DNA from: a virus
Reading direction: 5' to 3' (one strand)
Virus record (IMG/VR): IMGVR_UViG_3300043595_000029
Location: 1-22,221 of that record
DNA: 22,221 bases
Shown here piece by piece: positions 2-22,208 of the stretch. The notes under the pieces are model-generated. The model was not told the origin of the DNA, made no database searches, and saw only the letters and a program-made list of their open reading frames with translations. Position 1 is the first letter of the stretch. Each line of letters opens with the position of its first letter. A program made the translations under genes and the position numbers.

Positions 2-3000
2 GGCTACGATCCAGCGGAGGCGATCGCAGCCGCAGATAAGGCCAACAAAGCGATCGAGGAAAACGAGAAGTCGGCCGAGCGAGCGGGTGCGGCAATCGGA
101 AAGACGACGGACGCCCAGGCCCGGGCAATTGTCTCGATTACAGATCGAAGCCAGACAGCGATCAATCGAATCGTGCAGCAGGCGGAGCGGAAGGCTGCAA
201 TTGCCGGATCAAGTCCCGCAGAACTCCGGATATTGGAGAAGGAGCGTCTGCTGCGAAGCGTCTCCGGAAACCAGGAAGCCATCAATAGGGTCACCCTAGC
301 ACTGGAGAAGCAGGAAATCGCGGCCAGGAAGGCCGGGGAAGCATTGCAACTGCAGTCGGCGATCAATGCAAGCCGTCAAGCCGCTCGTGGCGCCGATGAG
401 TTCGCCGCGGCGCTCAATCGGGTCAACCTCGCCGCGCAGAAGGAGCGCGACTCCATCGAGCAAGGGATTCGCGCCATGGAGCGACGGGCTGCGGTGGCCG
501 GGAAAAACACGGTGCAACGGTTGGCGATTGAAGCTAACCAGGCAATCACCGGTCTCAGTAGTAAGGCCACGCCGGCACAGGTGGAACGCCTGACGGCGGC
601 TCACGCGATGCTTATCTCCGCTCAACAAAAAGCGAACGATACCAGCCAGACGTTTGCGCAGTCGCTGCTGTCACTGACGGGACGTGTCGGACTTGCGATC
701 GGGGCATTTGAGCTTTTCCGGAAAGTCGTAGGGTTCGGCACGGAGGCAGTAGCATACGCAGCGAGGACTGAGCTATTGGGTGTAGCTCTGCACGCCGTTG
801 CGAAGGCGAATGGTGTCGCTGAGAGCACTACGAATACGCTGGAACGGCGGTTGAAAAGCACGGGAATCGTAACGCAGGATGCCAGGCAGTCTCTCGCTCG
901 CTTGATCGCCGCCCAGGTGGATTATACGAAGGCGGCTCAATTGGCGCGCGCCGCCCAAGATCTCGGACGAGTAGCTGGAATTTCGTCCTCCGATGCATTC
1001 GACAAGTTAACTCATGCAATCGTCACGCAGCAGCCTGAACTACTGCGAATGTTGGGTCTGAATGTTAACTTGCAGCGGGAGTTTGAACTGGTCGCGAAGA
1101 AAGCTGGCCGCACCGCAGAGAGCTTGAGCGAGTACGAAAAACGCCAAATCACTGTTAACGCTGTGCTTCAGGCCGCTGCGGGATTCGCCGGCGTTTACGA
1201 AAAGTCTCTGGACACGGCTGGCGGACAGATGTTGAGCTTGCAACGCTACGCCCTCGAGGCAAAAGATGCATTCGGGCGAGAGTTTCTGCCCGAGTTGGCG
1301 AATACGGTGAAGTTGTTGACGTGGATCGCCAAGACTGGTGAAGAAGCAGGCTCCGTGCTCGCGAAAGCCGGGAAAATCGGTGCCGCGCCGTGGTACACGC
1401 TGCGCATCGAAATTCAAAAGCTGATCGAGGAAAAGCGAAAGTTGTTTGACCCTGACTTTGATGCGTCCGCGCGGAAGGAAGCCGAGGCCGCGACTGACCT
1501 TGTGAGGCGCCAGAAGGATCGGGAAGCGAGTACCAAGGTGTTGAGGGAGCAGGAGGAGCTTCGGGAGAAGTCAAAGCTCGCCCAACTTGAAATCGATAGA
1601 AAGCAACGGGAAGATCTGTTGAAACTTGATGAGCGCGCGGCGGATTTCCGCAGACGCGCAGAGCTCCAGGAATTACAGGGACTCGACCAGATCGCACTGA
1701 AACGGCGCCAGGCGCTGGATGAATTCGGGAAGACTCCCAAGGCGCGAGCCGATATTGAAAAAGGAATCGCTGTGGAGCGAGCGAAGTACCTCTCAGACTT
1801 CGATAAGAAACGGCAGGAAGCCCTCGACAAGACCCACGCGTCGATGGCGGATGGCATCCGTGACTTAGGAAGGCGCAACCTGGAGGAGCAGTATCGGGAA
1901 AACGTCGAACTCGCTAAATTAGGCGACGCCACAACGCGGACGAATGAGGAACGGGGACTCGCAGCGATAGAGGCGCGCAAGGCTTCTGAGTTACGTTCGA
2001 TTCAGGAAACTGGCGGGAAGAATATCGAGGCGCGGTTGACCGCTGAGGACAAGATCTTCGCCGTTGAGCAGGATTATGCGCTTAAGACCTTCCTGTTGAA
2101 AGCCGAATATATCAACCGCGAAGCCAATTTTCGAGCCGCGATGGCGACCACGGCCGGCGCGAAAGAGGCCATCCTGAATGAGGCCGCGGCTCGCGCGCAG
2201 CTCCTTACGGACCAGACTCAGGCATCCATTGATGCGGCTCGGGAGACTGCTGCCGTCCGGAAAATTCAACTCGTTCGGACCGAGCAGGAGAAGCTATTCG
2301 AAAAGGTCAGGAGCGCTGCCGATGGAGTCTTTGACGCGCTGGCCACCCGGACGCGTAGTCTCGGTGACTTGTTTAAAAACCTCATCCTGCAGCCCGTCCT
2401 TACTCTCCTAAAGAGCATCAGCAGCAACGCGATTGCAAGCCTGCTCACCGGTAGCCGTGGCGGCGGAGCGGCGGGCGGACTCGGCGGTTTGCTGGGCGGA
2501 CTCCTGGGCGGCGGGGGGGTTGCGCGCGCTGGCGCGCCTGGCGGCACACCGGGTTTCGCTGGGCCGGTTGGGCTGAGCGGAATGCTTGGGCTGGGTGGTG
2601 GCGTCGGGGGTGGCGGGGCGTTGGGCTTGAATGCCGGTGCGTTGGGGCTGGGGGCGGCCGGTGCCGGGCTCTTCGGCGCATTCAAGGCCGGGCAGAGCGA
2701 CAACAAAGTCTTGAAAGGGCTTGCTCCCGCCATTGGCGCAGTCAGCGGACTGGTCGGGTTCGGCGCTTTGGCGTCTTTAATCCCCGCGCTCATTGGGGCC
2801 GGGCCAGCCGGTTGGATCGCGGCGGCCGGGATCGGCGCCGCCATCGGAATCTACGGTGCGTTCAAGAAACGCGGCGAGGACAAGCTGGTCGAGAAGATCA
2901 AGGCGGTATACGGAATCAACGTTGACCGCAGCTTCGCCAAGAATCCGCTGATGGGGATCATCAAAGATCAGTTCGGTGGAGATATCGACGCCGGCATCCG

Positions 3001-3361
3001 ATCGCCAATAGTGAAGGAGCTGCTCGCGGTCTACCGGATGCAATCGAACCAGGCGGCCGCGGGATCCGGCCTCGGTGCGTTGAACAATATCGCCCGCGGT
3101 GTCTCGCTGTCTGGCTTCGGCGGCAACGTGTACCAGAATCCGGTGAACGTCCATGGCGGCTCATACGGGTACGGCGGCAGTATTGCCTCGAATGGCCCGG
3201 CGTCTCCGTTCCAGCCGGGCGATCGTCCCATCGTGATTGAGAACCGCTTACAAATCGACGGACGAGACGTGCAAGCCAGTGTTCAACGGACGAATCAGGC
3301 GAGTAATGGCCGCCGGGAATCCGCGGCGGTGCTTAGCGAGCCCCTTCTGATATTCGGATGA
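2..3361 (+). CDS. Phage tail tape-measure protein (5' partial)
   Basis: This protein sets tail length and is packed inside the tail tube. The frame is open from base 2 with coding-like sequence, so the GTG at 173 is internal and the true start lies outside the window; 1119 residues are visible. Order: helical Ala/Glu/Arg-rich N-terminal part; a core ending in TAGGQMLSLQRYALEAKDAF (about nt 1216-1275), typical of tape measures; a charged coiled-coil stretch (about nt 1410-1830); a segment ending GDLFKNLILQPVLTLLKS like the C-terminal part of lambda-type tape measures; a Gly/Ala/Leu-rich low-complexity stretch (about nt 2455-2690) containing a run of seven G; and hydrophobic helices (about nt 2718-2868). 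It sits directly upstream of minor-tail and tail-tip genes, as in siphoviruses. By the usual 0.15 nm per residue, the tail would be at least about 165 nm. The family call is firm; sub-domain limits are approximate. Confidence 0.9.
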   Translation, partial: GYDPAEAIAAADKANKAIEENEKSAERAGAAIGKTTDAQARAIVSITDRSQTAINRIVQQAERKAAIAGSSPAELRILEKERLLRSVSGNQEAINRVTLALEKQEIAARKAGEALQLQSAINASRQAARGADEFAAALNRVNLAAQKERDSIEQGIRAMERRAAVAGKNTVQRLAIEANQAITGLSSKATPAQVERLTAAHAMLISAQQKANDTSQTFAQSLLSLTGRVGLAIGAFELFRKVVGFGTEAVAYAARTELLGVALHAVAKANGVAESTTNTLERRLKSTGIVTQDARQSLARLIAAQVDYTKAAQLARAAQDLGRVAGISSSDAFDKLTHAIVTQQPELLRMLGLNVNLQREFELVAKKAGRTAESLSEYEKRQITVNAVLQAAAGFAGVYEKSLDTAGGQMLSLQRYALEAKDAFGREFLPELANTVKLLTWIAKTGEEAGSVLAKAGKIGAAPWYTLRIEIQKLIEEKRKLFDPDFDASARKEAEAATDLVRRQKDREASTKVLREQEELREKSKLAQLEIDRKQREDLLKLDERAADFRRRAELQELQGLDQIALKRRQALDEFGKTPKARADIEKGIAVERAKYLSDFDKKRQEALDKTHASMADGIRDLGRRNLEEQYRENVELAKLGDATTRTNEERGLAAIEARKASELRSIQETGGKNIEARLTAEDKIFAVEQDYALKTFLLKAEYINREANFRAAMATTAGAKEAILNEAAARAQLLTDQTQASIDAARETAAVRKIQLVRTEQEKLFEKVRSAADGVFDALATRTRSLGDLFKNLILQPVLTLLKSISSNAIASLLTGSRGGGAAGGLGGLLGGLLGGGGVARAGAPGGTPGFAGPVGLSGMLGLGGGVGGGGALGLNAGALGLGAAGAGLFGAFKAGQSDNKVLKGLAPAIGAVSGLVGFGALASLIPALIGAGPAGWIAAAGIGAAIGIYGAFKKRGEDKLVEKIKAVYGINVDRSFAKNPLMGIIKDQFGGDIDAGIRSPIVKELLAVYRMQSNQAAAGSGLGALNNIARGVSLSGFGGNVYQNPVNVHGGSYGYGGSIASNGPASPFQPGDRPIVIENRLQIDGRDVQASVQRTNQASNGRRESAAVLSEPLLIFG

Positions 3362-3545
3362 GCTGCGGAGCCTTGCAATTGGCTCGCTCGAATTCCTTGA
3401 GCGGCCGCTTGTAAATCACGGATTTATTACCAGCCGCATCGAAAACGATCTCATATGGCGCGTTGGTCGGGCTCGATCCTCCGATGAGCCACCGGCTCGG
3501 CCATGCTCCGCTTACTTTTGATTTCATCATTCGCTCTCGTTTCAT
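3333..3545 (-). CDS. Small antisense ORF between tail genes (possible moron)
   Basis: This is an unrecognised protein of about 65-70 aa on the strand opposite to all other tail genes. A longer open frame continues upstream over the next gene, but only this C-terminal part has a natural-looking composition, including APYEIVFDAAGNKSVIYKRP. Candidate starts are ATG at 3545 and tandem ATGs at 3530 and 3527; GAGAG lies just upstream of the tandem pair. It fills almost exactly the 208-nt gap between the tape measure and the next tail gene and overlaps the tape-measure 3' end by 29 nt. A TACAAT box (minus strand, 3570-3565) lies upstream, with no convincing -35. Single genes inserted between late genes and expressed separately are called morons, which would fit. 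It may instead be a chance open frame, since no family is recognised. Confidence 0.4.
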   Translation of the reverse strand: MKRERMMKSKVSGAWPSRWLIGGSSPTNAPYEIVFDAAGNKSVIYKRPLKEFERANCKAPQLIRISEGAR

Positions 3546-3569
3546 CTGCCGGCCCGACCCATTAATTGT

Positions 3570-3959
3570 ATGCCAGGAACCGTTTCGCAAGCCGTTGCCA
3601 CCACCGTGCTCCCTTATGCGCTCGCATCTGAGTATGTGGAGTGCCGGACATGGCCGGTGATTGAGAACGGACCGTTTCCTGACGGCAGCTACTTGAAGTA
3701 TCTGCAAGGCGCGGCGGACCGGCGGGAATGGAGGCTTGGCCGTCGATTGACCGGCGTGCAATACGCCGCGCTCCTGGCATTTTGGACGGCGCGCAAGGGC
3801 TGCCATCAAGCGTTCCACTTCTACCCGGTCCAGGCGCAGCATGACGCGACCGGCGCTTCGGCCACCGGCCGGTTTCTTGTCCGCTTCCTTGGTCCGTTCG
3901 GTACGACACATTCCAGCGGTCTCGACGCCGCTGGCTTTGGACTGATTCAACTACAATGA
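3570..3959 (+). CDS. Minor tail protein (gpM / DUF2460-like)
   Basis: A 129-aa protein, probably a distal-tail component joining the tail tube to the tip. Visible features are a WRLGRRLTGVQYAALLAFW segment followed by AFHFYP and a C-terminal GRFLVRFLGPFG. This is the layout of small siphophage tail proteins in which a helix (LxxxExxxLxxFWxxR) is followed by a beta strand ending in an aromatic-Asp/Pro turn and a final RF strand. Position supports the role: just after the tape measure and overlapping the tail-tip gene by ATGA (3956-3959). No Shine-Dalgarno is evident before the ATG, and upstream in-frame starts were not found. The assignment to lambda gpM (PF05939) or DUF2460 rests on pattern and synteny, not on a search. 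Confidence 0.6.
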   Translation: MPGTVSQAVATTVLPYALASEYVECRTWPVIENGPFPDGSYLKYLQGAADRREWRLGRRLTGVQYAALLAFWTARKGCHQAFHFYPVQAQHDATGASATGRFLVRFLGPFGTTHSSGLDAAGFGLIQLQ

Positions 3960-6900
3960 TTCGACTTCCCTACGGAACGGCGGAAAGCCGAGAGCCGGTC
4001 ATTCATGTCCACCGGTTTCAATCACGGGACACGAAGACGGAGCAGCGGTTCTATGCGGGCGCGGGCGAACGGCGATTGCAAGTTTCGCTGGGCGATCTAG
4101 CTCCCGACGAGCGGACGGAAGTAATTGACCAATTCGCCGCGGCGAGCGGGTCCTATCTTCCATTTACCATTGATCTCGTTGGGCCGTCCGGGGCGGTCGA
4201 ATCGCTCACTGTCCGCTTTGCCGTTCCGCGCCTGGAAATCCAGACGCTCATCGATGGCTCGAGTTGGGCCGCATCGTTTGAGCTGATCGTCGATCCAGGC
4301 GCAGAACCCTCGTACACGAGCGCCTCGGCAGAAACTCGGTTTCCTGGGTCGGCCTTGCAAGCCGCCTTGCTCAGCCCGGTACAGGAAATCATTCCGCTCG
4401 TTGTCATCACGCCGATTTCCGGTGAAATCCGGAGGGTATCGGAGCGCGGCTGTACAGTCGATGGCTCCCAATACTTGGCTCGACTCCTCGACTGGGACGG
4501 CATCAAGCAGTCGCTGTACGGCGCGGACCAGGCGAGTTTCACTTTGGCGAATGCGGACCGAGCGTTCACGGCTGCTGTCAATGCGGAAAACTGGCACGCC
4601 GCCGATGTACAGTTTTCGCTCCTGCACGTTGGCTCGCTGACAAAAATCAACCTGTGGCGTGGTCATGTGATCCCCGGTGGTTGGGATCTGTCTGGCGGCA
4701 ACGTTTTCCGGATTACGGCCGCGGACGGGGCGTACGAATTGCGGCTCGCCTATCCCCCGCGTAAGATCACGCGACAGGACGGCTTTGTGACGCCTGCGGA
4801 TCATCAGCCGGTCAATCTCGGGCGGGGAAAGAACCGGATAACGGCCACCTCAGTGGTCCACGACAGCGGGTTCGGGCGTCCGCTGAAGGACATTTGGGTA
4901 AACGATGCAACGGCGCCGTTGAAGGTCACCTGTGACGTGATCGCCGGTCGCGACGAGCGAGAATTCTATTCCGCGCTCGGGATTGTCGGACGCGGTCCGA
5001 TCGGCAATTTCGGTGCGCTCCCGATTATTGAAGGCGGATCGGCAGTCCACTATGGGACTCTCGATGGGCAGCCAAATCACGGGCCCGGGCTTTTCGGATT
5101 GCGGCGATCTCGCGGCGGCAATCCGGCGAATGGGTCGGAAGTCCAGTCCAGTGGAAATCCAGACGCTGGTTCCGACATTTTAGCCATCGACGAAGCAGGC
5201 TCCCCGCTCCCAGCCCAGCCTGCGCCTGCCGGCGCCGCGTTCCTGCAAATTCGCCGCACGGATGAGGCTGGGATTCAGCCGGACAATGCGACGAAAGAAC
5301 ACGAGATGATCGCGTTCGTTTCAGAGGGGAACGGCGGCTACATTTGGACTGGTGGAGTTCGCACGTGGTCCACGGCGATTACCAATCTGGCGTGGGTGGC
5401 GGTCAACGTATGGCTCCGCGGTAACGGTGTCGGGCTGGCTTCGCAGGCCGTGCAGGAGGAATACTTCGTTGTCTCGGCGGCCGAGGCCTTCGCGGCGACG
5501 TGTGGCGCGGTAGTCGATGCGCTGGTCGGCGCCGGGACGGAGCCGCAGTTTCAGTTTGTTGGGACAATCGCTGAGGAAAAGCCGCTCCGCGATTGGCTGA
5601 AAGAGATTTTGGCCGGCGGACTCGGCTACTTTACTTTCGCGTTTGGGAAACTAAAACTGGGCAGCCGGTTCCATAGTGGCTCCACTGAGGCGTTCGATAG
5701 CGGTAATATCATTCTCAATTCGCTCGCCCTGAGCGCGGCCACGGCTGAATACAACAGCCTTTCCGCCACGTTTGCTGATCGCGAGTACGGCTATTTGAGC
5801 AACCCGCTGGAATTTCGGGAGACGGATCACATTGCGGCGTTGGGGCAGGAACTAAAAGCCACAATGAACCTCGTGGGAGTCTGCACGAAATCGCAGGCCG
5901 CGCGCCTGGTGACAACGTTGGTGCGGGAGCGGCTCGGCGGTGTCGATGCGGCAGAGTGGGCGGCGGCGCGGCGGTTGCGATTTGCAACGACCGTCTTGGC
6001 GCTGAATGTGGAATGCGGCACAATCTCCGCGCTGACGCACGAAGACATGCCTGGCGGGTCTGGCGAGTTCATAACCGAGGGCTGGTCGCTGAATCGCGAC
6101 ATGAGCATTTCGATTGAAGGCCGGTCAACGACCGATGCCATGTACGACATGCTCGTCGGGAACAAGCCAACGGACGTCCCGGTGAACCTCCCCCTGGCGC
6201 AAACCGACAAGCTTCCCGGTCTTTTCGTTTATACGCCAGTCGTCAAGGATCTTGGTTTCCTGACGCTGACGGATTGCTCGATGACGGATGGCTCCAATCG
6301 AGGAATGAGGAGCGTAACTGTCTTCCTGGTGTTTGTGGATGACACGGAACCAGACAACTGGGTGACTCTGGACGCCTCACTTGGCACCGGGGATCCGGCT
6401 ACCTTCAACGTTACGCCGAATGGCGTGGTCTCCTTCGATGTCGACGATTACATTCTGTTTGACGATGCTGGTGGGTACGAGATCGCCAAGATCACTGCGC
6501 TCGCAACGAATACATGGACGCTGCAGCGCAACTGGCCTGGGAACGATCCGGCAGAGGCGATATTCGAATCGCTGAGGGTTGCCCACGCGGCAGGCACGCG
6601 GATCTACAAGTGCAAGATCCAGAAATTCAGTTTCAACGCCGCCGGCGGGACGTTCGAGAATTCCGGCGATACCGGCACTCTGGCGGCCGAGTTTCCTTGC
6701 CAATTAGCCGATGCGCGAGTGGTGGCAGTTATCGCGTCCGCGGCGAACGGATACGGGTATTCGGACTGGGTCGTGTACAACCTTGGCGCCGGCCTGGATA
6801 CGGACTCGATGTCCAGCTACGCTGCCGGGATCACGCCGCCTGGCGAAGTGACGATTGACTCGGCCGATTACGAGTTCATCGACGCTTACCGCCTTCGGGT

Positions 6901-9010
6901 CCGAGTCTACTGGTCGCCGCCGGCCATACTGGGCACCTTCGTGGGCGTGCACTGTTTCCATGAGGCGCCCGACGTTTCGACCAGTGGTCCGACGCCGATG
7001 GATGGAACACAGGCGATGGACGGGACTACAAATCTTGGTGGCGAGTGGGCTCCCATCGACCGCGGCCGCGGCACGATGAGTCCATTCGTCATCGAGATGG
7101 ACGCGGTCCGCGCGGCTGTGACGGATCGCTTCTACTTATCGAGCTATTCCACCGGGGCGGAGGCCGCGCTGGTAAGAGCGACGGAAGCGGATCCAACGCC
7201 GAGCATCACTCTCGCGATCGCGCCAGTTGCCTACCAGAACGGGGTTGAGTACGCGCAGTTGGTCACGGGCTTTGTTGCGACCGTGGAGTACGACGACTCG
7301 CATGTAGGATCGCCGAAGTACCGCATCAGATTCCAGTGGTCCGCTCCAGCGATTGCGCCTGCGGCATGGCAGCGCGGCTTCGGCGGTGTCCAGATCGTCT
7401 ACGAGTACAACGATGGGCGGCGGGCGAACGGACCAGCCTTCGCGGTGAACGAAACCGACGCCTACAGCGGCTGGTACGAGTTGCGCGCCGGATCGTCGGT
7501 CGTCCGGTGTTTGGGTGTCTCCTACGACAACTCCGACGAGCCACGAGTGAATTCGATTGTGCCCGGTGTCACGCCGCTGTCGATAGTGGTGGCTACGTGG
7601 CCGCTCGTGGCGAGACCGCCCGAGTCTCCATACGCGGATAATGTCACCGGCTTCGTGGTCCACAACGACCGATACGAGGTCAACGGCGCTGGGCAAAAAG
7701 TCCTGATGATCGATTGGTTTTGGACGCCTCCGGTAGGCACGGCCAATCTCGCCCGATGGGGCGGCGATGTCATCTTCCTGTACCTGCCTGCTGATCCGAA
7801 TGCCTATGCCTGCACCGGCAAGGATAGAGGCCCGAGCGGGACGATGGAGTTTAACGATTTCCCGTCTGGCGCAGTCACCTGGAAATTTCGCGCGATCAGC
7901 TACGACAACAACGACAACCCGAATACTGACCCGTTTGACCCCATCGCCGGGACGCCGGAATGCGATATCAACGTCGATGGGCCAACACTTGGCGGGACGG
8001 GGCTGGAGTACACATCGAACGTCACCGGCTTCACCGCCACGGCCGGGTATTCGACCGACGGGCAGGGGCAAAAGCAGCTACAGATTTCGAGCGCATGGAC
8101 CCGCCCGAGTGACCCGACATTTGCGGGCCCGACGATCTACGCAATTGTGCCCGGAATTACAAACCACGTCCAGTTGACCGGAATGGAGCCTGGAACAAGC
8201 GTCGAGAGCTTCCCGGGATACTTCCCCGCCGCGCCAGAGAACTGGACGGTGTACGCGCTCGCACAGGATGTCAACGGACGCTCAAATACCTACGACTCCG
8301 GTATCACGCCTAAGTCGGTTATAACGGTCAACCCGCCAACATTGGGCGCTGCTGGCGTGGAGTATACGTCAAACGTCACTGGGTACTCGTTCTCGGTACT
8401 GTCGCTAACCGGATCAGACGGCACCACACCGCAGCGGATAGGAGGGGTGTTCACGCCTCCCACAGACAAGACCTGGGGCGGCGTAGAGATCCGGATATAT
8501 GACGGCGGCGGTACGTTGGTTGCGAAGTCATCCGCCGCTACATCGCCCGTTGCTGTTACGATTCCGAATCCGACGACTTCGACGACATACACGGTCAAAC
8601 TGGTTAGTTTCGATGTCAACGGCAAATCGAACACGGAAACAGGCGGAACGCCGCAGGACACGGTACTGGCCGGATCGACGGCGGGGACGATGAATTGGGC
8701 GAAATTCGACCCGTTGACGGTCGAGGGCACTGAATTCGAAGTGGTGTCTGGCAAGGTCCAAATGAAGGGCCTTAACTTCACGAAGGCCATTGTCGGCACG
8801 TTTCTTGGATCGGAGTTTGAAGTCAGCGCGGGTGCATTTAAAATCAAGGAACTCGCTGCGGACAAGATCACAACCGGCATCCTTAGTGTTGGCGGTGGCG
8901 GGGGCAAAGTCAGTAAGTTTGCCGTGTTCAATAACGGCGGGTCCGCTATCGGCTGGATTGGCGACGACACCGCATCGAGCGGCTATGATGGCGCATGGTT
9001 CAAGCGGTAA
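3956..9010 (+). CDS. Tail tip / central fibre protein (lambda gpJ-like) with FN3-like repeats
   Basis: A 1684-aa tail-tip protein, likely the baseplate hub and host-contact protein. Residues about 1-120 form a compact domain resembling the preceding minor-tail protein (EVIDQFAAASGSYLPFTIDL, then LTVRF), so a DUF2460-like module seems fused to the hub. Residues about 130-720 look like the hub, including DQASFTLANADRAFTAAV and LWRGHVIPGGWDL. From about 950 there are repeated FN3-like units of about 118-127 aa, anchored near residues 971, 1097, 1224, 1350 and 1468; the last three share NVTGF/Y and two share PTLG followed by EYTSNVTG. The C-terminus has KFAVFNNGGSAIGWIGDD and GAWFK, a module repeated in the next ORF. 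It starts by ATGA overlap. The end is odd: TAA at 9008 cuts a fibre module short while coding signal continues in frame +1. Confidence 0.88.
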   Translation: MIRLPYGTAESREPVIHVHRFQSRDTKTEQRFYAGAGERRLQVSLGDLAPDERTEVIDQFAAASGSYLPFTIDLVGPSGAVESLTVRFAVPRLEIQTLIDGSSWAASFELIVDPGAEPSYTSASAETRFPGSALQAALLSPVQEIIPLVVITPISGEIRRVSERGCTVDGSQYLARLLDWDGIKQSLYGADQASFTLANADRAFTAAVNAENWHAADVQFSLLHVGSLTKINLWRGHVIPGGWDLSGGNVFRITAADGAYELRLAYPPRKITRQDGFVTPADHQPVNLGRGKNRITATSVVHDSGFGRPLKDIWVNDATAPLKVTCDVIAGRDEREFYSALGIVGRGPIGNFGALPIIEGGSAVHYGTLDGQPNHGPGLFGLRRSRGGNPANGSEVQSSGNPDAGSDILAIDEAGSPLPAQPAPAGAAFLQIRRTDEAGIQPDNATKEHEMIAFVSEGNGGYIWTGGVRTWSTAITNLAWVAVNVWLRGNGVGLASQAVQEEYFVVSAAEAFAATCGAVVDALVGAGTEPQFQFVGTIAEEKPLRDWLKEILAGGLGYFTFAFGKLKLGSRFHSGSTEAFDSGNIILNSLALSAATAEYNSLSATFADREYGYLSNPLEFRETDHIAALGQELKATMNLVGVCTKSQAARLVTTLVRERLGGVDAAEWAAARRLRFATTVLALNVECGTISALTHEDMPGGSGEFITEGWSLNRDMSISIEGRSTTDAMYDMLVGNKPTDVPVNLPLAQTDKLPGLFVYTPVVKDLGFLTLTDCSMTDGSNRGMRSVTVFLVFVDDTEPDNWVTLDASLGTGDPATFNVTPNGVVSFDVDDYILFDDAGGYEIAKITALATNTWTLQRNWPGNDPAEAIFESLRVAHAAGTRIYKCKIQKFSFNAAGGTFENSGDTGTLAAEFPCQLADARVVAVIASAANGYGYSDWVVYNLGAGLDTDSMSSYAAGITPPGEVTIDSADYEFIDAYRLRVRVYWSPPAILGTFVGVHCFHEAPDVSTSGPTPMDGTQAMDGTTNLGGEWAPIDRGRGTMSPFVIEMDAVRAAVTDRFYLSSYSTGAEAALVRATEADPTPSITLAIAPVAYQNGVEYAQLVTGFVATVEYDDSHVGSPKYRIRFQWSAPAIAPAAWQRGFGGVQIVYEYNDGRRANGPAFAVNETDAYSGWYELRAGSSVVRCLGVSYDNSDEPRVNSIVPGVTPLSIVVATWPLVARPPESPYADNVTGFVVHNDRYEVNGAGQKVLMIDWFWTPPVGTANLARWGGDVIFLYLPADPNAYACTGKDRGPSGTMEFNDFPSGAVTWKFRAISYDNNDNPNTDPFDPIAGTPECDINVDGPTLGGTGLEYTSNVTGFTATAGYSTDGQGQKQLQISSAWTRPSDPTFAGPTIYAIVPGITNHVQLTGMEPGTSVESFPGYFPAAPENWTVYALAQDVNGRSNTYDSGITPKSVITVNPPTLGAAGVEYTSNVTGYSFSVLSLTGSDGTTPQRIGGVFTPPTDKTWGGVEIRIYDGGGTLVAKSSAATSPVAVTIPNPTTSTTYTVKLVSFDVNGKSNTETGGTPQDTVLAGSTAGTMNWAKFDPLTVEGTEFEVVSGKVQMKGLNFTKAIVGTFLGSEFEVSAGAFKIKELAADKITTGILSVGGGGGKVSKFAVFNNGGSAIGWIGDDTASSGYDGAWFKR

Positions 9011-9827
9011 TATTGCGCTCAATGGAGCTTTACTGGTCAACGGGACCATCGGGGCTGGGAAGCTCTCAGCCAGTTCCGTCGTCGCCCTCAATGTCGTTAC
9101 CGGAAGCTTAACCAGCGACAAATTTGACACGACTGTTATCAACGTAGGTGGCGGCGGTTCGAAACCAGGAAAGTTCGCGGTCTTCAATGCGGCTGGGTCG
9201 CAGATCGGGTTTATCGGTGTGGAGAGCGGCAATGACGGCGCGTGGTTTAAGACGATGCGCGTCGGCGGATCGAGTTACGCAAACGGAATCCTTCGGGCGG
9301 ATGCCAGCGGGAACGTGTCAATGGACGGCGCGACCTTCACGCTCACGCTGAATGGGGTAACCACCGAAATTGCCAATCTCTTGGACGCAGCTGTTTATGT
9401 GGGACTGCGCATAAAGCAGGCTTCCGCTCCAGGCACAAAAACGGTTATCTCGCCCAACAGCGTCGTCATCTCGGACAACAGCGGCTGGACTCCGGTGACT
9501 ATATCGAATTCAGGAACTAGCGGATTTCTAGATATCACGGAAAGCACTTCGAGCCGAGCCTTTACGGTAATTCCAGGTTCGTCACTCGTTAACTTGAACG
9601 GGATGAACTTAGACGCGACCGGCTATATCAACTCAAATAGCCACTTTGAGGTGAGCGGTGTACGGGTAGTAGGTCCACGCAAAAGCGCCATCGGCTCCGC
9701 GTCAACATCGCACAGCGCGGGCGGCGGTGGAACAGTAGATACCGCCCTGAACAATCTCGGGACGATTATTAACGCAATCGTGAACCGCCTTGGAGCCACC
9801 AGCGGGCACGGGATGACATCAGATTAA
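8985..9827 (+). CDS. Tail fibre ORF, likely +1 continuation of the tail-tip protein
   Basis: A fibre-like protein of 280 residues from tandem ATGs at 8985/8988; the frame stays open further upstream, but that part is an Arg/Ser-rich shadow of the tail-tip gene. Real coding begins near 9006 (GNIALNGALLVNGTIGAGKL) and continues with beta-structured fibre modules: KFAVFNAAGSQIGFIG, NDGAWFKTMRVGG and ADASGNVSMDGATFTLTLNG, typical of gpJ C-terminal (DUF1983-like) and side-fibre regions. The KFAVFN...GAWFK unit repeats the one ending the upstream ORF. Three readings are possible: a separate protein coupled by the 26-nt overlap; the second half of one protein made by +1 frameshifting at AAG CGG TAA; or a one-base mutation or assembly error. 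It ends in a polar tail, 13 nt before the next gene. Confidence 0.7.
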   Translation: MMAHGSSGNIALNGALLVNGTIGAGKLSASSVVALNVVTGSLTSDKFDTTVINVGGGGSKPGKFAVFNAAGSQIGFIGVESGNDGAWFKTMRVGGSSYANGILRADASGNVSMDGATFTLTLNGVTTEIANLLDAAVYVGLRIKQASAPGTKTVISPNSVVISDNSGWTPVTISNSGTSGFLDITESTSSRAFTVIPGSSLVNLNGMNLDATGYINSNSHFEVSGVRVVGPRKSAIGSASTSHSAGGGGTVDTALNNLGTIINAIVNRLGATSGHGMTSD

Positions 9828-9840
9828 TTACAGAGGAACA

Positions 9841-10098
9841 ATGAACAAAATCGATCTATCGCCGGCGCAACAGCAGCGCCTGAAGGTCTTCAAGGCGCGG
9901 ATCATACCGCTGAAAGCGGAACTTGCTGCGCTTGAGCAGGGCGTGCACTCGATGCTTTCGACCGTCTGCGAGATGTCGGGGGCCGGTAACGACGTGAATT
10001 ACTCGCTCAACGAGGAATGCACCGCGCTTGTGGCGACTGTGAAGGCGGCGGAACTTGCCGTGCCCGAGCGCGCGCCGGCGGCGAAGAAAGGCAAGTAA
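9841..10098 (+). CDS. Hypothetical small phage protein
   Basis: An 85-aa, mostly helical protein with no recognised family. It begins LSPAQQQRLKVFKARIIPLK, has a short helical heptad-like stretch (KAELAALEQGVHSML) and ends in a basic Ala/Lys tail (PAAKKGK). The start is well set: AGAGGA lies 5 nt before the ATG. It sits between two fibre genes and its stop codon directly abuts the GTG of the next one, so it is probably co-expressed with the fibres. Small helical proteins in this place can be fibre chaperones or attachment adaptors, but nothing in the sequence shows this. Confidence 0.75.
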   Translation: MNKIDLSPAQQQRLKVFKARIIPLKAELAALEQGVHSMLSTVCEMSGAGNDVNYSLNEECTALVATVKAAELAVPERAPAAKKGK

Positions 10099-10809
10099 GT
10101 GTCTTGGTTATCACGGAATAACTTCACTGCGGCGCCGTCCGACGCTCTGCATTATTCCTTCTTGAATAAGTTGGCGGACGATATCCGCAGCTGGGGCGGG
10201 AATGTCAACGCGGGCGGGTACGAGCTCAACAACCTGAGCCGTGTTTCCTTCGGAGCGACGTTCAACGCACAGAATTTAGCCCTGTACGAAAGCGGGGCCA
10301 ATTTCTACGGTTTCGGCTTCGAGACCGGCGTTTACGGTGCTGCCATGAAGCACATCGCGGGAACGACAGGCGGGCACTCGTTTTACGTGGATAGCACCAT
10401 CCGCGCAATGTTCATTCATCCAGAGGGCCGGGTGGGCATCGGCACGATCGCGCCGGGACAGCGGGTGACGGTATACGGGACAACCTCGCTTCCACAGACG
10501 TCTGGTACGTCGCAAACCGGGCTGCTGCGGGTGGAATCAACTGCCAGCAATTGCATTGATATGGGTCTGTCGAGCGTTAGTCCCTTTGGGGCTTGGATCC
10601 AGGCCACGAACGTGTTGGCGCTGGGGACCAACTACCCGCTCATCCTCAACCCAAACGGCGGAAACGTGGGGATTGGAAAAGTCAATCCGGGAAGCGCTCT
10701 CTCGGTGGCAGGACTCGTCGAGTACGCAAATGAGGCAGCGGCGATCTTGGCTGGCCTGACTACCGACGACTTGTATTTAACAGGAACTTACGTAAGGGCG
10801 GTCTCATAA
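10099..10809 (+). CDS. Tail fibre protein
   Basis: A 236-aa fibre protein that would project from the tail and contact the host. The N-terminus (WLSRNNFTAAPSDALHYSFL, then NKLADDIRSWGGNVNAGGYEL) resembles the attachment part of phage fibres, where NxGGYxLxNL precedes a beta-rich shaft. Two copies of the fibre motif G(R/N)VGIG followed by PG occur: GRVGIGTIAPGQRVTVYG (about residues 113-130) and GNVGIGKVNPGSALSVAG (about 191-208). The C-terminus (EAAAILAGLTTDDLYLTGTY) looks like the short domain often ending such fibres. The start is GTG directly after the TAA of the previous gene, with AAAGG upstream. Which receptor it binds cannot be read from the sequence. Confidence 0.8.
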   Translation: MSWLSRNNFTAAPSDALHYSFLNKLADDIRSWGGNVNAGGYELNNLSRVSFGATFNAQNLALYESGANFYGFGFETGVYGAAMKHIAGTTGGHSFYVDSTIRAMFIHPEGRVGIGTIAPGQRVTVYGTTSLPQTSGTSQTGLLRVESTASNCIDMGLSSVSPFGAWIQATNVLALGTNYPLILNPNGGNVGIGKVNPGSALSVAGLVEYANEAAAILAGLTTDDLYLTGTYVRAVS

Positions 10810-11127
10810 ATGGCTCTATCAAACGAAGCGACACTGGCCGTACTGGCGGAAGTAGCTGCACATGGCATCGAAGCTACGACGAAGCAGATCCAAGATGCCT
10901 ATATTGCGTCAAAAATGGCTTCCGCGCTGGCTGTTCTGGATCAGGCCGTGTCGATGGATGTGCAGGACTGGACGATCCTGGAAGGTTTCCTGGGAGCGGG
11001 CGTGTCCTCAACGGCGCTGTATCCGCTTCGGGATGCGATCAAGGCCAAGCTGGCTGCAAGAGACAGCACGGGATTAGCAGTGCTGCTGCTGTCGTTTTAT
11101 GCGGCCGATCAGGCGCTTAGAGGTTAA
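10810..11127 (+). CDS. Hypothetical small phage protein
   Basis: A 105-aa protein, mainly helical and rich in Ala and Leu, with no recognised domain. No signal peptide or clear membrane span is visible; the hydrophobic stretch GLAVLLLSFYAADQALRG at the C-terminus is short. The ATG directly follows the TAA of the fibre gene, and AAGGGCGGT about 7 nt upstream may serve for ribosome binding. It lies between the fibre and lysis genes, with TAATG coupling to the next ORF. It may be a virion or chaperone component, but this is only a guess from position. Confidence 0.7.
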   Translation: MALSNEATLAVLAEVAAHGIEATTKQIQDAYIASKMASALAVLDQAVSMDVQDWTILEGFLGAGVSSTALYPLRDAIKAKLAARDSTGLAVLLLSFYAADQALRG

Positions 11128-11459
11128 TGATGGCCACGAGCTGGTTACGAACACTTGGGATCGGCAAGTATATCCTGCGGACGGCGCCGGTGGCGGCATT
11201 GACAGCCGATCAATTCGGCGTTCCGTGGGCGGCGCGAGCCGGTGAGGTTATCCGCGCCGCGCAGGAGCGGGGAGGCACCGGCAGTGAGCGCATGGCATTT
11301 GCCGTAGAGTCCATGATCGAAGACGCGCCGCCGTTGATTGAGGCGCTGGAAAAGCAGCTTGGCCGGCCGATATCTGGCGAGGCGGCGCTTGATTATATCG
11401 AGGCGCAACTCCAGGCTCACTATGACTTGATGAGGGCTGTGGGAGTGCTGAAAAAGTAA
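11127..11459 (+). CDS. Hypothetical small phage protein
   Basis: A 109-110-aa protein with no recognised family. The N-terminus is mildly hydrophobic (KYILRTAPVAALTADQFGV) without a clear membrane helix; the rest is predicted helical and acidic (MIEDAPPLIEALEKQLGR). The first ATG overlaps the upstream TAA (TAATG), but the second ATG at 11130 has better spacing (6 nt) from AGAGG, so translation may start there. Its own TAA overlaps the lysozyme ATG in the same way, placing it in the late transcript next to the lysis genes. A role in lysis is possible but not shown. Confidence 0.7.
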   Translation: MMATSWLRTLGIGKYILRTAPVAALTADQFGVPWAARAGEVIRAAQERGGTGSERMAFAVESMIEDAPPLIEALEKQLGRPISGEAALDYIEAQLQAHYDLMRAVGVLKK

Positions 11460-17670: not shown

Positions 17671-18612
17671 TCAATCTGAGAACCCCACCGTCGGATTGTC
17701 GAGAACTGTCTGGGCAAGCTGTAGTGAACGCGAAGCCCGCACCATGTTGAATTTGCAGTTAACGAAGATGACATCTTGCAGTAGGATTGGGCCACCTGAA
17801 TAACTGATCTCAATGCTATCGAGGATAACGTGTCTCAGGTGCATCCCGTCAAGCACCAAGCTCCCCCCGACGGCTACTAAAAGTTGATACCCGTGTGGAT
17901 CTTTGTTTTTGTTATCATCACCGATTCGGTTGAAGATCACAGCCTGGTCAATAGGTACTTGTCCCCCAACTGAGAGTCCAGGTAGTGCCCTGCCAGATAC
18001 GGGGCGCATCTCGTATTCCGCTAAGTGCTCGATAGCGACCTGTGTCGTTACCCGACGCATGGCTGCTTCGACGGATCGCAGGTTTTTATTGAGGTGCGTT
18101 CTATACGAAACAACCTCCAGCGCCGCATGCCATGCAGGCGCGGACTCGGATGCGGCGAGAAACCGGGAGCCAGCCTGCTTTATTGTGTCTTCAGGTATGT
18201 TGACATTTTGTTTTTTCGCGTCGTCGAAGATGGCCTTTACTTTCGTGGCGCTATCCGGGTTTGTTGGATGTGCCGCGATTAGGATGGTTTGAATGGCGGC
18301 CAGTTGCTTGTCGATGGCGTCCAGCCGAGCGTTAGTGCGGCCCCGAAATTCGGCGTTAACGGCCTTCTCAGCGTTGGCCGCACTGAATTGAGTTACGGCC
18401 ATCACTACCAACGTTGCGGAAACAGTCACTAAAGCGCTGAGGGCGCCCCATTCTTTCAGAAACCTTCTTAAAGGGCCTGATTTACTTCCATTTAAGGCAT
18501 CTTTTATCTCCTGCTGAACCCACTCCCTATCGGCCTTGCTTAGAGCCATTTCATCGCTCTCAGGCTCTTGGACGGTCTGGTCCGCAGCGTAAATCTGGAG
18601 TGCGTTGCCCAT
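17671..18612 (-). CDS. Membrane-anchored protein with beta-helix-like C-terminus
   Basis: A protein of up to 313 aa with no recognised family. After a soluble helical N-terminus (MALSKADREWVQQEIKDALN from residue 22) there is one membrane helix at about 55-76 (ALVTVSATLVVMAV), then a helical region (FRGRTNARLDAIDKQLAAIQ) and, from about 230, short repeated strands (LVLDGMHLRHVILDS, ILLQDVIFVNCKFNM) that look like a small beta-helix or pentapeptide-type fold. Two starts are possible: ATG 18612, with no Shine-Dalgarno but coding-like GC3 after it, or ATG 18549 with GAGAG 7 nt upstream. It is the last gene of the leftward unit, and the DNA here is visibly less GC-rich than the tail genes. It may be a superinfection-exclusion or surface cargo protein, but that is only inference. 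Confidence 0.7.
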   Translation of the reverse strand: MGNALQIYAADQTVQEPESDEMALSKADREWVQQEIKDALNGSKSGPLRRFLKEWGALSALVTVSATLVVMAVTQFSAANAEKAVNAEFRGRTNARLDAIDKQLAAIQTILIAAHPTNPDSATKVKAIFDDAKKQNVNIPEDTIKQAGSRFLAASESAPAWHAALEVVSYRTHLNKNLRSVEAAMRRVTTQVAIEHLAEYEMRPVSGRALPGLSVGGQVPIDQAVIFNRIGDDNKNKDPHGYQLLVAVGGSLVLDGMHLRHVILDSIEISYSGGPILLQDVIFVNCKFNMVRASRSLQLAQTVLDNPTVGFSD

Positions 18613-18759: not shown

Positions 18760-19890
18760 TCAAAAAACGGGACATGCATTCGGCCTCCAGCTTCCGAAGC
18801 CAGCGAGCCCAGATATTGGTTGGAATACAAAGCCTTTTGTATCGCCAGCCGTGTTCGCGTCGATGGTGAGTGGTAAGAGAATCTCAAGGGGAGAGCCAGG
18901 AGATCGAGAAGCGCCATTTGCGCCATTCCATCCGAAATACAATCGCGCGTCGATCGGGATCGGCTGCGCTGGGAGGGCAGTTCCACAGAGCGATACATGG
19001 AGGTTTATCTGCTGCAACCATGGAAAATCGCGGGTTGAGCCAATAAATTCGGCTTTCGTAGGGAAATAATAAAGGCTTCCTTTCAAGCTCAGTCCCACAA
19101 AGAGGGGTAGGTTGGCTGCCTGCGTTTCGCCGGCACAAAACGCCGCGCCGCAGGGCATCAGCTCGCCGAGCCCTGTAAGCCATACCGTCAGTCGTCCGCC
19201 ATTCCGCACCGGGTTAGATGTCGTAACCAAGGCTCCGTTAGGGTGGGTGACCGCGCCGAACCGAACGCTCGACACGGTGTTTTTCTCTGCCGAGACCGCG
19301 TGTGGTTGATTGAGCCCTGTAAATGGCATGTGATAACCCAGTACAGCCAATGCCGGGCGGGCAGCATCGCCAGCGACATCAAAAGGCCAGATATTCCAAA
19401 AAGCATCGCTGTCAGGATACATTCGACCGAGTCGAATGTATCCCATTCCGTTTTTTACAAGAACAATTGTTCCGAGATAGTCCGCGGAGTTGCCAGAGAA
19501 ACGTTGACCGGTGAGGTTGACGGTCCATGGAATAACCGCATTGATCTGTCCTGGGCTAACGTAAGTCAAGGTCAAAGGATCTCCGCAGAGAGCTACTTTG
19601 GCGGGATCTTCTTGCCCAGACACCGACTTTATATACGGCTCGCAACTGTCGGGATTGGCGAGGTATCTCACGCTGACCCCACCTAATGTTTCCGCCTGGT
19701 CTTGGTAGCTAGCAAAGGCTGGGACAGCAGCTAAGTTCTTGCCGAAGAATGTCACACTGTCACCGGCGGCGTACCATCGCTGCCTTGTAAAAGGATCGAC
19801 CGATGATGTCGCACTCGTGACTTCTGGACGCTGTCCGAGCACAATTGGAGCACTAATAATAAGCGCAGCAAAGACGTATCGCACGGTCAT
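18760..19890 (-). CDS. Secreted TIGR03437-family protein
   Basis: An exported protein of 376 aa (384 if the upstream ATG at 19914 is used). ATG 19890 is preferred because AAGGGA (19903-19898) sits 7 nt upstream and the product then opens directly with the signal peptide MTVRYVFAALIISAPIVLGQ. It carries both halves of the TIGR03437 domain: GDSVTFFGKNL (about 43-53), TLGGV (68-72) and SPGQINAVIPW (112-122), then TGLGE (239-243) and WLQQINLHV (291-299). The family is known mostly from Solibacter and relatives as a C-terminal module of extracellular proteins; its function is not established. Here it forms nearly the whole mature protein. It lies downstream of an RHH regulator in the leftward unit, suggesting expression in the prophage state as host-derived cargo. 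Confidence 0.82.
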   Translation of the reverse strand: MTVRYVFAALIISAPIVLGQRPEVTSATSSVDPFTRQRWYAAGDSVTFFGKNLAAVPAFASYQDQAETLGGVSVRYLANPDSCEPYIKSVSGQEDPAKVALCGDPLTLTYVSPGQINAVIPWTVNLTGQRFSGNSADYLGTIVLVKNGMGYIRLGRMYPDSDAFWNIWPFDVAGDAARPALAVLGYHMPFTGLNQPHAVSAEKNTVSSVRFGAVTHPNGALVTTSNPVRNGGRLTVWLTGLGELMPCGAAFCAGETQAANLPLFVGLSLKGSLYYFPTKAEFIGSTRDFPWLQQINLHVSLCGTALPAQPIPIDARLYFGWNGANGASRSPGSPLEILLPLTIDANTAGDTKGFVFQPISGLAGFGSWRPNACPVF

Positions 19891-19962
19891 TGTGGTTTCC
19901 CTTGAGTACATCACTTTAGTAGCCCGGCACGGCGGCCGGTATTCCGTTTCAGCGCCGCGGCT

Positions 19963-20484
19963 TCAACGGGCACGCCTTTTTTTCATTCCACCGGTTTTTG
20001 AGCCTGCCGAAGAAGATTCTGCATTGCTTGCGCTCCCGAGATCTGGGCCTGACATAAACGGTCTAGCAGCAGAAAGAGAATCCGAGTGCTCTTGGCTGGC
20101 ACTATTGGCTTTGTCGACGGAGTCGGCAAGAGATAAAGCGGCATTGTTCGTAACCTCAAGCGCGATCGTGCGAATCAGGTCACGGAGAATCGCGGCCATC
20201 GCCTCACTGCGCTTTTGTATTTGGAGAAGTGAGGTTACTAAATCTTCATCGACATGCAAATGGTTCGTCGGTACCTGTGCCTGACTACCCTGGACTGGTC
20301 CTAGTGGAGGAGTCTGTGTTGGCGAACTTTCGGCCGTCATGGGTAGCGGGGGTTCGGCGAGCCACAATGCTAGGCCTTCGATGATTGCCTTGGTTTGATT
20401 GGTCTTCCGTTTGAGGCAAGCGAGCTTCAGGCGCTGGAGGAGCTCCTCTGGTAATCGCACCGTTGTTTGAATGATTTCAGGCAC
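19963..20484 (-). CDS. Ribbon-helix-helix (RHH) DNA-binding regulator, long form
   Basis: A 173-aa protein starting at GTG 20484. The N-terminal 45 residues fit an RHH (Arc/MetJ/CopG) DNA-binding domain: beta strand IIQTTVRLP, helix A EELLQRLKLACLKRKT and helix B NQTKAIIEGLALWLAE. RHH dimers insert the paired strand into the major groove of palindromic operators. A Pro/Thr/Ser-rich linker (about 46-75) follows, then a helical region (DEDLVTSLLQIQKRSEAMAA and IRDLIRTIAL-like stretches, about 78-125) that may oligomerise, and a disordered Ser/Gly/basic tail ending GGMKKRRAR. It faces a second RHH gene across a control region with an inverted repeat and heads the leftward unit, so it is the best candidate for the phage repressor. 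RHH antitoxin is the main alternative, but no toxin partner is seen. Confidence 0.72.
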   Translation of the reverse strand: MPEIIQTTVRLPEELLQRLKLACLKRKTNQTKAIIEGLALWLAEPPLPMTAESSPTQTPPLGPVQGSQAQVPTNHLHVDEDLVTSLLQIQKRSEAMAAILRDLIRTIALEVTNNAALSLADSVDKANSASQEHSDSLSAARPFMSGPDLGSASNAESSSAGSKTGGMKKRRAR

Positions 20485-20507
20485 TATCTTCGTTTTGTTT
20501 TCAATAA

Positions 20508-20536
20508 GTTATAAATTTAATATCGCACGGTGTCTT
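20508..20536 (-). promoter_or_regulatory. Candidate leftward promoter for the RHH/exoprotein unit
   Basis: On the minus strand AAGACA (20536-20531) and TATAAC (20513-20508) are separated by 17 nt, matching four of six bases at -35 and five of six at -10. Transcription would begin near 20501, giving a leader of about 17 nt before the GTG at 20484. The -35 box shares two bases with that of the rightward promoter. Confidence 0.5.
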
Positions 20537-20563
20537 GACATCATGCGATATATACCGCATGAT
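20535..20563 (+). promoter_or_regulatory. Candidate rightward promoter for the short RHH gene
   Basis: A perfect TTGACA (20535-20540) is followed after 17 nt by CATGAT (20558-20563), four of six matches to TATAAT; TGATAT two bases on is an alternative with 19-nt spacing. The start point would be near 20570, leaving a leader of only about 13 nt before ATG 20583, which has no Shine-Dalgarno. The whole spacer is covered by an inverted repeat. Confidence 0.55.
20540..20563. promoter_or_regulatory. Perfect inverted repeat, candidate RHH operator
   Basis: ATCATGCG (20540-20547) and CGCATGAT (20556-20563) are perfect 8-bp arms separated by the 8-bp AT spacer ATATATAC, with 16 bp from arm centre to arm centre. 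It fills the region between -35 and -10 of the rightward promoter, so a bound protein would block polymerase there while leaving the leftward promoter largely free. RHH proteins on both sides are natural binders of such sites. Confidence 0.6.
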
Positions 20564-20582
20564 ATCCCTAACCCACGCAATT

Positions 20583-20756
20583 ATGGAAACCAACATAACA
20601 CAGCCAACACCGTTAGCTAAGGTTCAGGCTTGGGTTCAGCCGGAGTTGTGGCGGCGGGCAAAGGCCAAGGCAGCTTTGAAAGCGCAGAACAACAGCCAAC
20701 TGGTGACAGAGGCGATTGAGGCGTACCTGGAGAACAACAAGGACATTAGCGCATGA
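20583..20756 (+). CDS. Short RHH DNA-binding protein (57 aa)
   Basis: A 57-aa protein with a full RHH layout and little else: strand AKVQAWVQP (about 12-20), helix A ELWRRAKAKAALKAQ (21-35) and helix B NNSQLVTEAIEAYLENN (36-52). Length and layout resemble Arc- or omega-type phage and plasmid repressors. Reading could begin upstream at TTG 20535 or ATG 20559, but those lie inside promoter elements, so ATG 20583 is chosen; it lacks a Shine-Dalgarno and may be read from a very short leader. It is the first gene of the rightward early-type unit and is coupled by ATGA to the next ORF. A Cro-like role against the long RHH protein is inferred from geometry alone. Confidence 0.65.
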   Translation: METNITQPTPLAKVQAWVQPELWRRAKAKAALKAQNNSQLVTEAIEAYLENNKDISA

Positions 20757-21097
20757 AATCTTCTACCGCAGTCACGGCGCCCGCTGCGAATCGAACTCGC
20801 CAAACTACTGAAAACATAGAGAAGATCGTCGGCAACCTAACGCCGCAGTTGCGTCAGAGAATTATCACCGAGTGGCGGCGGCACAGTGACGGCCGGCGGC
20901 GGGGAACCTACGAACGGAGCCGTCTTGTTTCGAAGAACCTGGGGATTTCCGAGGCCGTGGTGGACGAGGTGATTTTCACGCATATGGAAGCGGTGGAGAG
21001 CGAGTTGGCGACGGTCCGGACGGGGATGTGCTCGGTTCTCGCGATGGCGACGGATGCGGGGCGGGCGGTGTGGGCGGAGAAGCGGGGGGCGGCATGA
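20753..21097 (+). CDS. Hypothetical basic protein, possibly DNA-binding
   Basis: A 114-aa, mainly helical and basic protein. The middle is Arg-rich (RQRIITEWRRHSDGRRRGTY), followed by SRLVSKNLGISEAVVDEVIF (about 56-75), which has the shape of a helix-turn-helix (helix, LGIS turn, helix), and a further helix (HMEAVESELATVRTG). The start is ATGA-coupled to the RHH gene, with AAGGA about 11 nt upstream. Position straight after a small RHH regulator suggests a second early regulator, but no family is recognised. Confidence 0.6.
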   Translation: MKSSTAVTAPAANRTRQTTENIEKIVGNLTPQLRQRIITEWRRHSDGRRRGTYERSRLVSKNLGISEAVVDEVIFTHMEAVESELATVRTGMCSVLAMATDAGRAVWAEKRGAA

Positions 21098-21322
21098 AGG
21101 ACGTCTCCCGGAAGGGCATGGCGGAGATTGTGGTTGGCTTGGCGAGAACGGGCGCTGACGGAAGCCGGCGACCCCAGCTCGGCGACGCACGCGTTGCGGA
21201 CGGCCATAAAGTTACTCAGCGAGGAAAAGGATTTTTGGGAAGCGGAATGCGAGCGCGTCTATTCCCAGCTTGGTCAGGCGTCCGAAGAGAGTCCGCAGCA
21301 TGCCAGGGGAGGGGCAACGTGA
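21094..21322 (+). CDS. Small early protein split over two frames (uncertain)
   Basis: Two frames overlap here. From ATG 21094 (coupled to the upstream stop) the frame reads MKDVSRKGMAEIVVGLAR and then turns into Arg/Gly-rich, shadow-like sequence up to a stop at 21327. From about 21140 the +1 frame becomes protein-like (RALTEAGDPSSATHALRTAI, then LLSEEKDFWEAECERVYSQL) and stops at 21322; its only starts are TTG 21128 or 21134. The simplest reading is one protein of about 75 aa that changes frame between 21135 and 21145, by frameshifting, mutation or sequence error. Alternatively, a TTG-started 64-aa protein is the real gene. No family is recognised. Confidence 0.4.
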
Positions 21323-21668
21323 ACTGACGTATACCTTCCCGATGAAGCTCACCGCGAAGGTAAGTTTGAGTGGCAGAAGACTGGTAGTCCAAGCCAATGA
21401 TGCCGTGTTCGGCATTAGTATCGCGAGCGAGGCGGCTGAATGGATATGGGAGGAAGTTCTGGGCGGTGGAGACCGCAAGGACGCCAGGGTGATCGTTGAA
21501 TCATCCGTCTCCCTGACAGACAAGGGTGTCGCCGTATTTATCGGCGGCGGCCCGACGAAGTATCCGCTATTCCGAACTTTGGATGGCCGGGCGCGCGGAA
21601 TACTGGCGGACCGCCAGGCGGCGGTGAACGCCGGTACTCCGATGCTTTGGAAGCCGGTGCAGCTATGA
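21300..21668 (+). CDS. Hypothetical small early protein
   Basis: A 122-aa protein with beta-strand character and no recognised domain: FPMKLTAKVSLSGRRLVVQA, AVFGISIASEAAEWIWEEVL and VIVESSVSLTDKGVAVFIGG. ATG 21300 is chosen because GAAGAGAG lies 9 nt upstream and the stretch before it (from GTG 21270) is shadow-like; ATG 21342 is a further candidate. The start overlaps the previous ORF, and its stop overlaps the next start as ATGA, so the unit is tightly coupled. Confidence 0.6.
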   Translation: MPGEGQRELTYTFPMKLTAKVSLSGRRLVVQANDAVFGISIASEAAEWIWEEVLGGGDRKDARVIVESSVSLTDKGVAVFIGGGPTKYPLFRTLDGRARGILADRQAAVNAGTPMLWKPVQL

Positions 21669-21991
21669 ATCAACCATTCCCTTGGATTATGGCGAGCGCG
21701 GAAGTCCGCGTCGTCGGCGAGATTATTGCGGTATCGGTGCATGGCCTTACGATCCGTACGCAGGTGAGGCCGGAGATGGCGAGAGCGATTTGGGCGCGTT
21801 TCCACATTCAGCCTGGGATCTTCTCCCTTGAGCTGAAAGATGACTTGGCCCGGGTGGAGCTGTGCCGGCGCAGTATCAAGGTTTGGATTGGTGAGATGAG
21901 TTTCGAGCGGCCGATTGTGGACCGGTATTGGAAGTTTCTGGAAGTACAAGAGACGGTATCGCGGGAAAGGCGGGTTGCAAATGTTGCATGA
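21665..21991 (+). CDS. Hypothetical small early protein
   Basis: A 108-aa protein of unknown family, soluble, with mixed alpha/beta character (AEVRVVGEIIAVSVHGLTIR; ELKDDLARVELCRRSIKVWI; EMSFERPIVDRYWKFLEV). ATG 21665 overlaps the preceding stop as ATGA and has GGAAG about 12 nt upstream; an upstream in-frame start at 21647 is inside the previous gene. It overlaps the next ORF by 11 nt. Like its neighbours it resembles the small ORFs that fill phage early regions. Confidence 0.6.
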   Translation: MNQPFPWIMASAEVRVVGEIIAVSVHGLTIRTQVRPEMARAIWARFHIQPGIFSLELKDDLARVELCRRSIKVWIGEMSFERPIVDRYWKFLEVQETVSRERRVANVA

Positions 21992-22208
21992 CACGGACTG
22001 GGCGCTGCGCATGGAAGCCGCGGCGGAGTTGGCTCCGGAGATTGAGTGCCTTGAAGGGCAGCTCCGGATAGCCAAGGCGGAGGCGGAAAAGTGGCGGCGG
22101 CTGCATCACCTTGGCACTCGCGCTTTAATCGCTGCGTGCTGCGTGCTGCTGGTGTCGATCGCCTGCGAAATTGCCGCCCTGCTGTATATGCACGGGAGGT
22201 GCTCATGA
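21981..22208 (+). CDS. Small membrane protein, one C-terminal span
   Basis: A 75-aa protein starting at ATG 21981, with AAGGCGGG about 6 nt upstream. An acidic helical N-terminal half (MEAAAELAPEIECLEGQLRI, then AEAEKWRRLHHLG) is followed by one membrane helix (ALIAACCVLLVSIACEIAAL) and a very short tail. It would sit in the inner membrane with the coiled-coil-like part inside or outside. No family is recognised. It is ATGA-coupled to the next, truncated gene. Confidence 0.6.
   Translation: MLHDTDWALRMEAAAELAPEIECLEGQLRIAKAEAEKWRRLHHLGTRALIAACCVLLVSIACEIAALLYMHGRCS

Follow-up and report, generated by a model that had tools for sequence, protein, structure and literature searches.

Two small genes that point away from each other follow a block of phage late genes, and the question raised by this locus is whether their products and the short gap between them form a regulatory switch and, if so, what that switch controls. 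The window (the whole stretch of DNA that was analysed) is an entire linear virus record of 22,221 bases, and it is a phage fragment. Its left and middle parts carry genes for a tail protein (Phage-tail_3), a phage lysozyme and a holin and, by our reading of the open reading frames (ORFs), a tape-measure-like protein; the gene order is tail, lysozyme and holin genes and then the divergent pair. Both divergent ORFs listed in the first-pass annotation are present, one coding leftward for 173 aa and the other rightward for 57 aa. The genes on which the argument turns are the following.

19963-20484, minus strand: gene of the 173-aa protein, GTG start at 20484; by profile matches and a low-confidence model, ribbon-helix-helix (RHH) domain at about residues 1-45, linker, predicted long helix (80-139) and basic tail.
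20583-20756, plus strand: gene of the 57-aa protein, ATG start at 20583.
20753-21097, plus strand: gene of a 114-aa protein, from the ORF table, the first gene after the 57-aa gene.
18760-19914, minus strand: gene of a 384-aa protein with TIGR03437 (Solibacter C-terminal domain), E=2.7e-16.

A clear ribosome-binding site was found at neither the 173-aa nor the 57-aa gene.

An RHH N-terminus had been assigned to both proteins, and this assignment is well supported for the first protein and more weakly supported for the second. Among the 300 ORFs of the window, both versions of a profile of solved RHH proteins placed the 173-aa protein first and the 57-aa protein second. In the six-segment version, segment 56B and the ParG alignment derive from a query patterned on the 57-aa protein; with both left out, the smaller version gave the same top two ORFs with lower scores. 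For the 173-aa protein, none of 5000 shuffled sequences equalled the observed score with the six-segment profile, and 4 of 5000 did so with the smaller one. An Arc/Mnt profile, made of phage Arc and Mnt proteins, was equalled in 0 of 3000 shuffles. In addition, the 173-aa protein gives the sole match to Pfam RHH_1 in the record (E=7.1e-4, which falls below the Pfam curated cut-off), and ParG, like RHH_1, matches its N-terminus weakly. Pfam Arc matched neither protein of the pair. Judged from its sequence, an RHH domain combined with a long helix is well supported for the 173-aa protein. A low-confidence AlphaFold model from the single sequence places helices at 13-24, 29-43 and 80-139 with the full RHH fold absent, and this helix pattern may resemble an RHH domain with an oligomerising tail.

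For the 57-aa protein, 2 of 5000 shuffles equalled the score with the six-segment profile and 18 of 5000 with the smaller, cleaner one. The Arc/Mnt profile gave no match (492 of 3000 shuffles were as good), and the Pfam RHH families gave none either. The protein does match NF052617 (E=9.7e-7), a family to which the analysis assigned no fold, and RelB-like proteins weakly (E=0.019). Its single-sequence AlphaFold model is one long helix, again with the full RHH fold absent; such single-sequence models are uninformative on the RHH question. The 57-aa protein is probably also an RHH protein. The proposal that two RHH-type genes diverge from an operator-like repeat is supported; the full fold appears in the single-sequence model of neither protein.

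The gap between the two start codons is 98 bp long and AT-rich (35% GC vs 59% GC for the window). The gene layout, promoter-like sites and half-sites can be read directly from the DNA, as follows.

20535-20563, plus strand: rightward promoter-like site TTGACA-17-CATGAT, 10 of 12 matches; the TTGACA is perfect and the spacer has 17 bp.
20508-20536, minus strand: leftward promoter-like site AAGACA-17-TATAAC, 9 of 12 matches, weaker than the rightward one.
20520-20534, plus strand: half-site H1, ATATCGCACGGTGTC, covering the -35 box and spacer of the leftward promoter.
20537-20551, read on the minus strand: half-site H2, ATATCGCATGATGTC, common to both inverted repeats.
20552-20566, plus strand: half-site H3, ATACCGCATGATATC, covering the -10 box of the rightward promoter.

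The back-to-back promoter-like elements with partly shared -35 boxes that had been noticed earlier are there, bases 20535-20536 being common to both boxes; by number, promoter-like matches in the region are not above chance (3 found vs 2.0 expected). The perfect 8-8-8 inverted repeat, ATCATGCG-N8-CGCATGAT, was likewise found, at 20540-20563. The first-pass annotation erred in confining it to the rightward spacer, for H1 adds a repeat that extends across the -35 box and spacer of the leftward promoter. The array at 20520-20566 consists of three similar 15-bp half-sites that form two interlocked inverted repeats, with H1 and H3 each matching H2 at 13 of 15 positions. H2-H3 makes a 30-bp palindrome with 26 of 30 palindromic positions, and H1-H2 holds another perfectly matched pair of 8-bp arms, ATATCGCA-N16-TGCGATAT, at 20520-20551.

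The operator repeat is above chance. In random 98-bp sequences of the gap composition, a 26/30 palindrome arises with p of about 5e-4 (rate 0.0005), a pair of such palindromes did not arise in 20000 trials, and a third half-site of at least the quality of H1 was seen in 12 of 20000 random gaps. The next even-centred 30-mers of the window reach 24 (a neighbour of the same repeat, at 20521) and 22 palindromic positions; an odd-centred hairpin at 19415-19443 matches the operator palindrome in strength. An alternative role of the palindrome as a hairpin in RNA (RNA fold z=-2.6) was set aside: both predicted transcription starts lie downstream of the array, which would therefore act in DNA rather than in an mRNA. 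The exact repeat pattern has three matches in virus contigs, in contexts unrelated by neighbouring ORFs, and these were taken as chance. Within the window, TTAGCGCATGAAATC at 20746-20760, where the 114-aa gene has its start codon, agrees with an operator half-site at 12 of 15 positions; chance alone predicts about one such site in the window.

We consider it probable that this divergent RHH pair regulates itself as a switch, through one operator of three half-sites that serves both promoters. At least one RHH-type protein would bind the three half-sites between the genes, and we infer that this is most likely the 173-aa protein. With H2-H3 occupied, the rightward promoter would be blocked across both of its boxes (-35 and -10) and the stretch between them; with H1-H2 occupied, the block on the leftward promoter would be at the -35 box. 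The array spans the rightward promoter from -35 to -10 plus the leftward -35 box, and a single protein could therefore repress both promoters. In a state resembling lysogeny, the 173-aa gene would be expressed and the small genes of the rightward run silent. The 57-aa protein, encoded first in the rightward run, would lower the leftward promoter as well as its own expression, as Arc does in P22. The 173-aa protein is proposed as a Mnt-like repressor on the lysogen side and the 57-aa protein as its Arc-like partner; the two would then be mutually opposed, and the rightward operon would be early or lytic.

The layout resembles that of the lambda-type CI/Cro region, in which two divergent promoters share an operator of several sites; the proteins there are of the helix-turn-helix type, whereas no such domain was recognised here by family search. 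The first-pass annotation had regarded an all-RHH divergent switch as unusual. Such a phage switch is in fact already known, from P22 immI, the closest known system, and from Kapi1, Edno5, SPN3UB and Emek.

In the P22 sequence (NC_002371), mnt runs leftward, arc runs rightward with ant next, and the promoters stand back to back. P22 and the window share, first, divergent small genes of RHH type (probable for the 57-aa protein) with back-to-back, overlapping promoters. Secondly, the intergenic gap is 90 bp in P22 vs 98 bp here, and Arc has 53 aa vs 57 aa for the rightward protein. Thirdly, the Arc operator lies inside the rightward promoter, starting at the final A of TTGACA and reaching the -10 box, and the window has its operator at the same promoter point (TTGAC-ATGATAGAAGCACTCTACTAT in P22 vs TTGAC-ATCATGCGATATATACCGCATGAT in the window). 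Finally, Mnt comprises an RHH domain and a C-terminal domain that were solved apart (1mnt, 1qey), which recalls the short RHH domain and long helix of the 173-aa protein. The immI-type layout, that is, divergent genes, overlapping promoters and an operator between -35 and -10, is present here. In contrast, P22 has separate operators for Arc and Mnt, whereas here one half-site sequence is repeated in a three-half-site array, and Mnt has 83 aa as against 173 aa. Membership of P22 immI itself fails, because the 57-aa protein does not match the Arc/Mnt profile and no ant gene was recognised after it.

The four other phages also carry divergent Mnt-like and Arc-like genes, with Arc-like proteins of 52-57 aa, and in Kapi1 the Arc-like gene overlaps the next gene by 4 nt, as the 57-aa and 114-aa genes do here. 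They differ from the window in having an antirepressor or KilA-N gene downstream, in their enterobacterial hosts and in their gap palindromes, which are all shorter than that of the window. An RHH protein that maintains lysogeny is F55 of the archaeal virus SSV1, which represses early promoters and its own promoter (PMC5569661). Autorepression by an RHH protein would be common to F55 and the switch proposed here; F55 differs in using tandem repeats as binding sites, and a divergent RHH partner is not described there.

What the switch would control can be read in two ways, which refine the role of the autoregulated switch and are not rivals to its mechanism. P22 immI is a secondary immunity region (PMC11016777) that tunes the main switch via Ant (PMC11016777; PMC7549136) and behaves as a variable 'moron' (PMC2629481). 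It is quite possible, at somewhat under even chances, that the present pair is likewise an immI-like moron or accessory module, in which the RHH proteins control local genes and tune, but do not set, the choice between lysis and lysogeny. The nearest anatomical match is immI, the 'ant moron', which lies in the late operon but has its own expression (PMC2629481), and the pair here also comes directly after late genes. Against this stands the absence of an Ant-like gene downstream. None of the genes after the 57-aa gene matched an antirepressor family, and the next product, the 114-aa protein, had no match in Pfam, NCBIfam, PHROG or PADLOC, toxin families included. One stretch of the 114-aa protein, SRLVSKNLGISEAVVDEVI, looks like a helix-turn-helix by eye, without a supporting family match.

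Alternatively, the pair could be the primary lysogeny switch in place of CI/Cro, with the 173-aa protein as prophage repressor and the rightward run as the early lytic operon, a role that we regard as rather unlikely. Lambdoid maps likewise have divergent units behind the late genes; other repressors were not recognised within the window; and F55 provides a precedent for an RHH main repressor (PMC5569661). However, the window is a fragment and a second repressor may sit outside it, no integrase was seen in it, and the same layout in P22 is secondary to immC (PMC11016777). Among the scanned proteins of the 22.2-kb window, neither an integrase nor a CI-like gene was recognised. A more specific and speculative proposal, to which we attach a low probability, is that an acidobacterial phage lineage without a CI-type repressor takes its primary lysis-lysogeny decision by competition of the two RHH proteins for a single operator of three half-sites.

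The rightward pair could instead be a toxin-antitoxin unit, with the 57-aa protein as RHH antitoxin, the overlapping 114-aa protein as toxin and the palindrome as autoregulatory operator. The end of the 57-aa gene and the beginning of the 114-aa gene have 4 nt in common, the small RHH gene comes first, and the weak RelB-like match points the same way. This is nevertheless improbable, since a toxin-binding tail would hardly fit into 57 aa, no toxin family matches the 114-aa protein (PADLOC was empty) and the divergent 173-aa RHH gene is left unexplained. A ParG/CopG-like partition or copy-control regulator of an extrachromosomal prophage, as suggested by the weak RHH_1 and ParG matches and by a long helical tail that could serve oligomerisation, is very improbable, as no ParA-type ATPase or replication gene was recognised nearby.

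Should both proteins bind, the locus would extend double-repressor switches of RHH type beyond the enterobacterial P22 group, in a form that uses a single common operator in place of two, and it would offer a candidate immunity region in phages of Acidobacteria, about which little is known. The system is small and cheap to test, comprising two small proteins and a 47-bp site. The phage host is probably a soil member of the Acidobacteria, because the leftward gene at 18760-19914 encodes the TIGR03437 Solibacter domain.

A single relative was found, IMGVR_UViG_3300020195_000171, which is similar across window positions from about 140 to 11140 and stops short of the RHH-pair region; by our reading of its ORFs, terminase- and portal-like genes lie to the left of the similar part. 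The 173-, 57-, 114- and 108-aa proteins had no relatives in virus contigs. No homologue was returned by tblastn of the 173-, 57- and 114-aa and tape-measure proteins in phage records or of the 57-aa protein in plasmids, and the 173-aa protein and the tail-tip alignment gave no match in species genomes.

The stretch at 20753-22208 is densely packed with overlapping genes (114, 64, 121, 108 and 75 aa) that have no convincing family matches, a packing like that of phage early regions. On the other side of the pair, the TIGR03437 gene lies 48 bp downstream of the 173-aa gene and is possibly cotranscribed with it. The start of its product resembles a signal peptide, and the leftward gene at 17671-18612, also downstream of the 173-aa gene, encodes a 313-aa protein with a hydrophobic stretch; both may be lysogenic-conversion or host-derived genes. 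Within the TIGR03437 gene, the hairpin at 19415-19443 has perfectly paired arms of 13 bp around a loop of 3 nt, GGATACATTCGAC-CGA-GTCGAATGTATCC, and is followed on the plus strand by TTTTTT 7 nt further on (RNA fold z=-5.8). It could be a terminator that keeps rightward late transcription from running antisense into the regulatory region.
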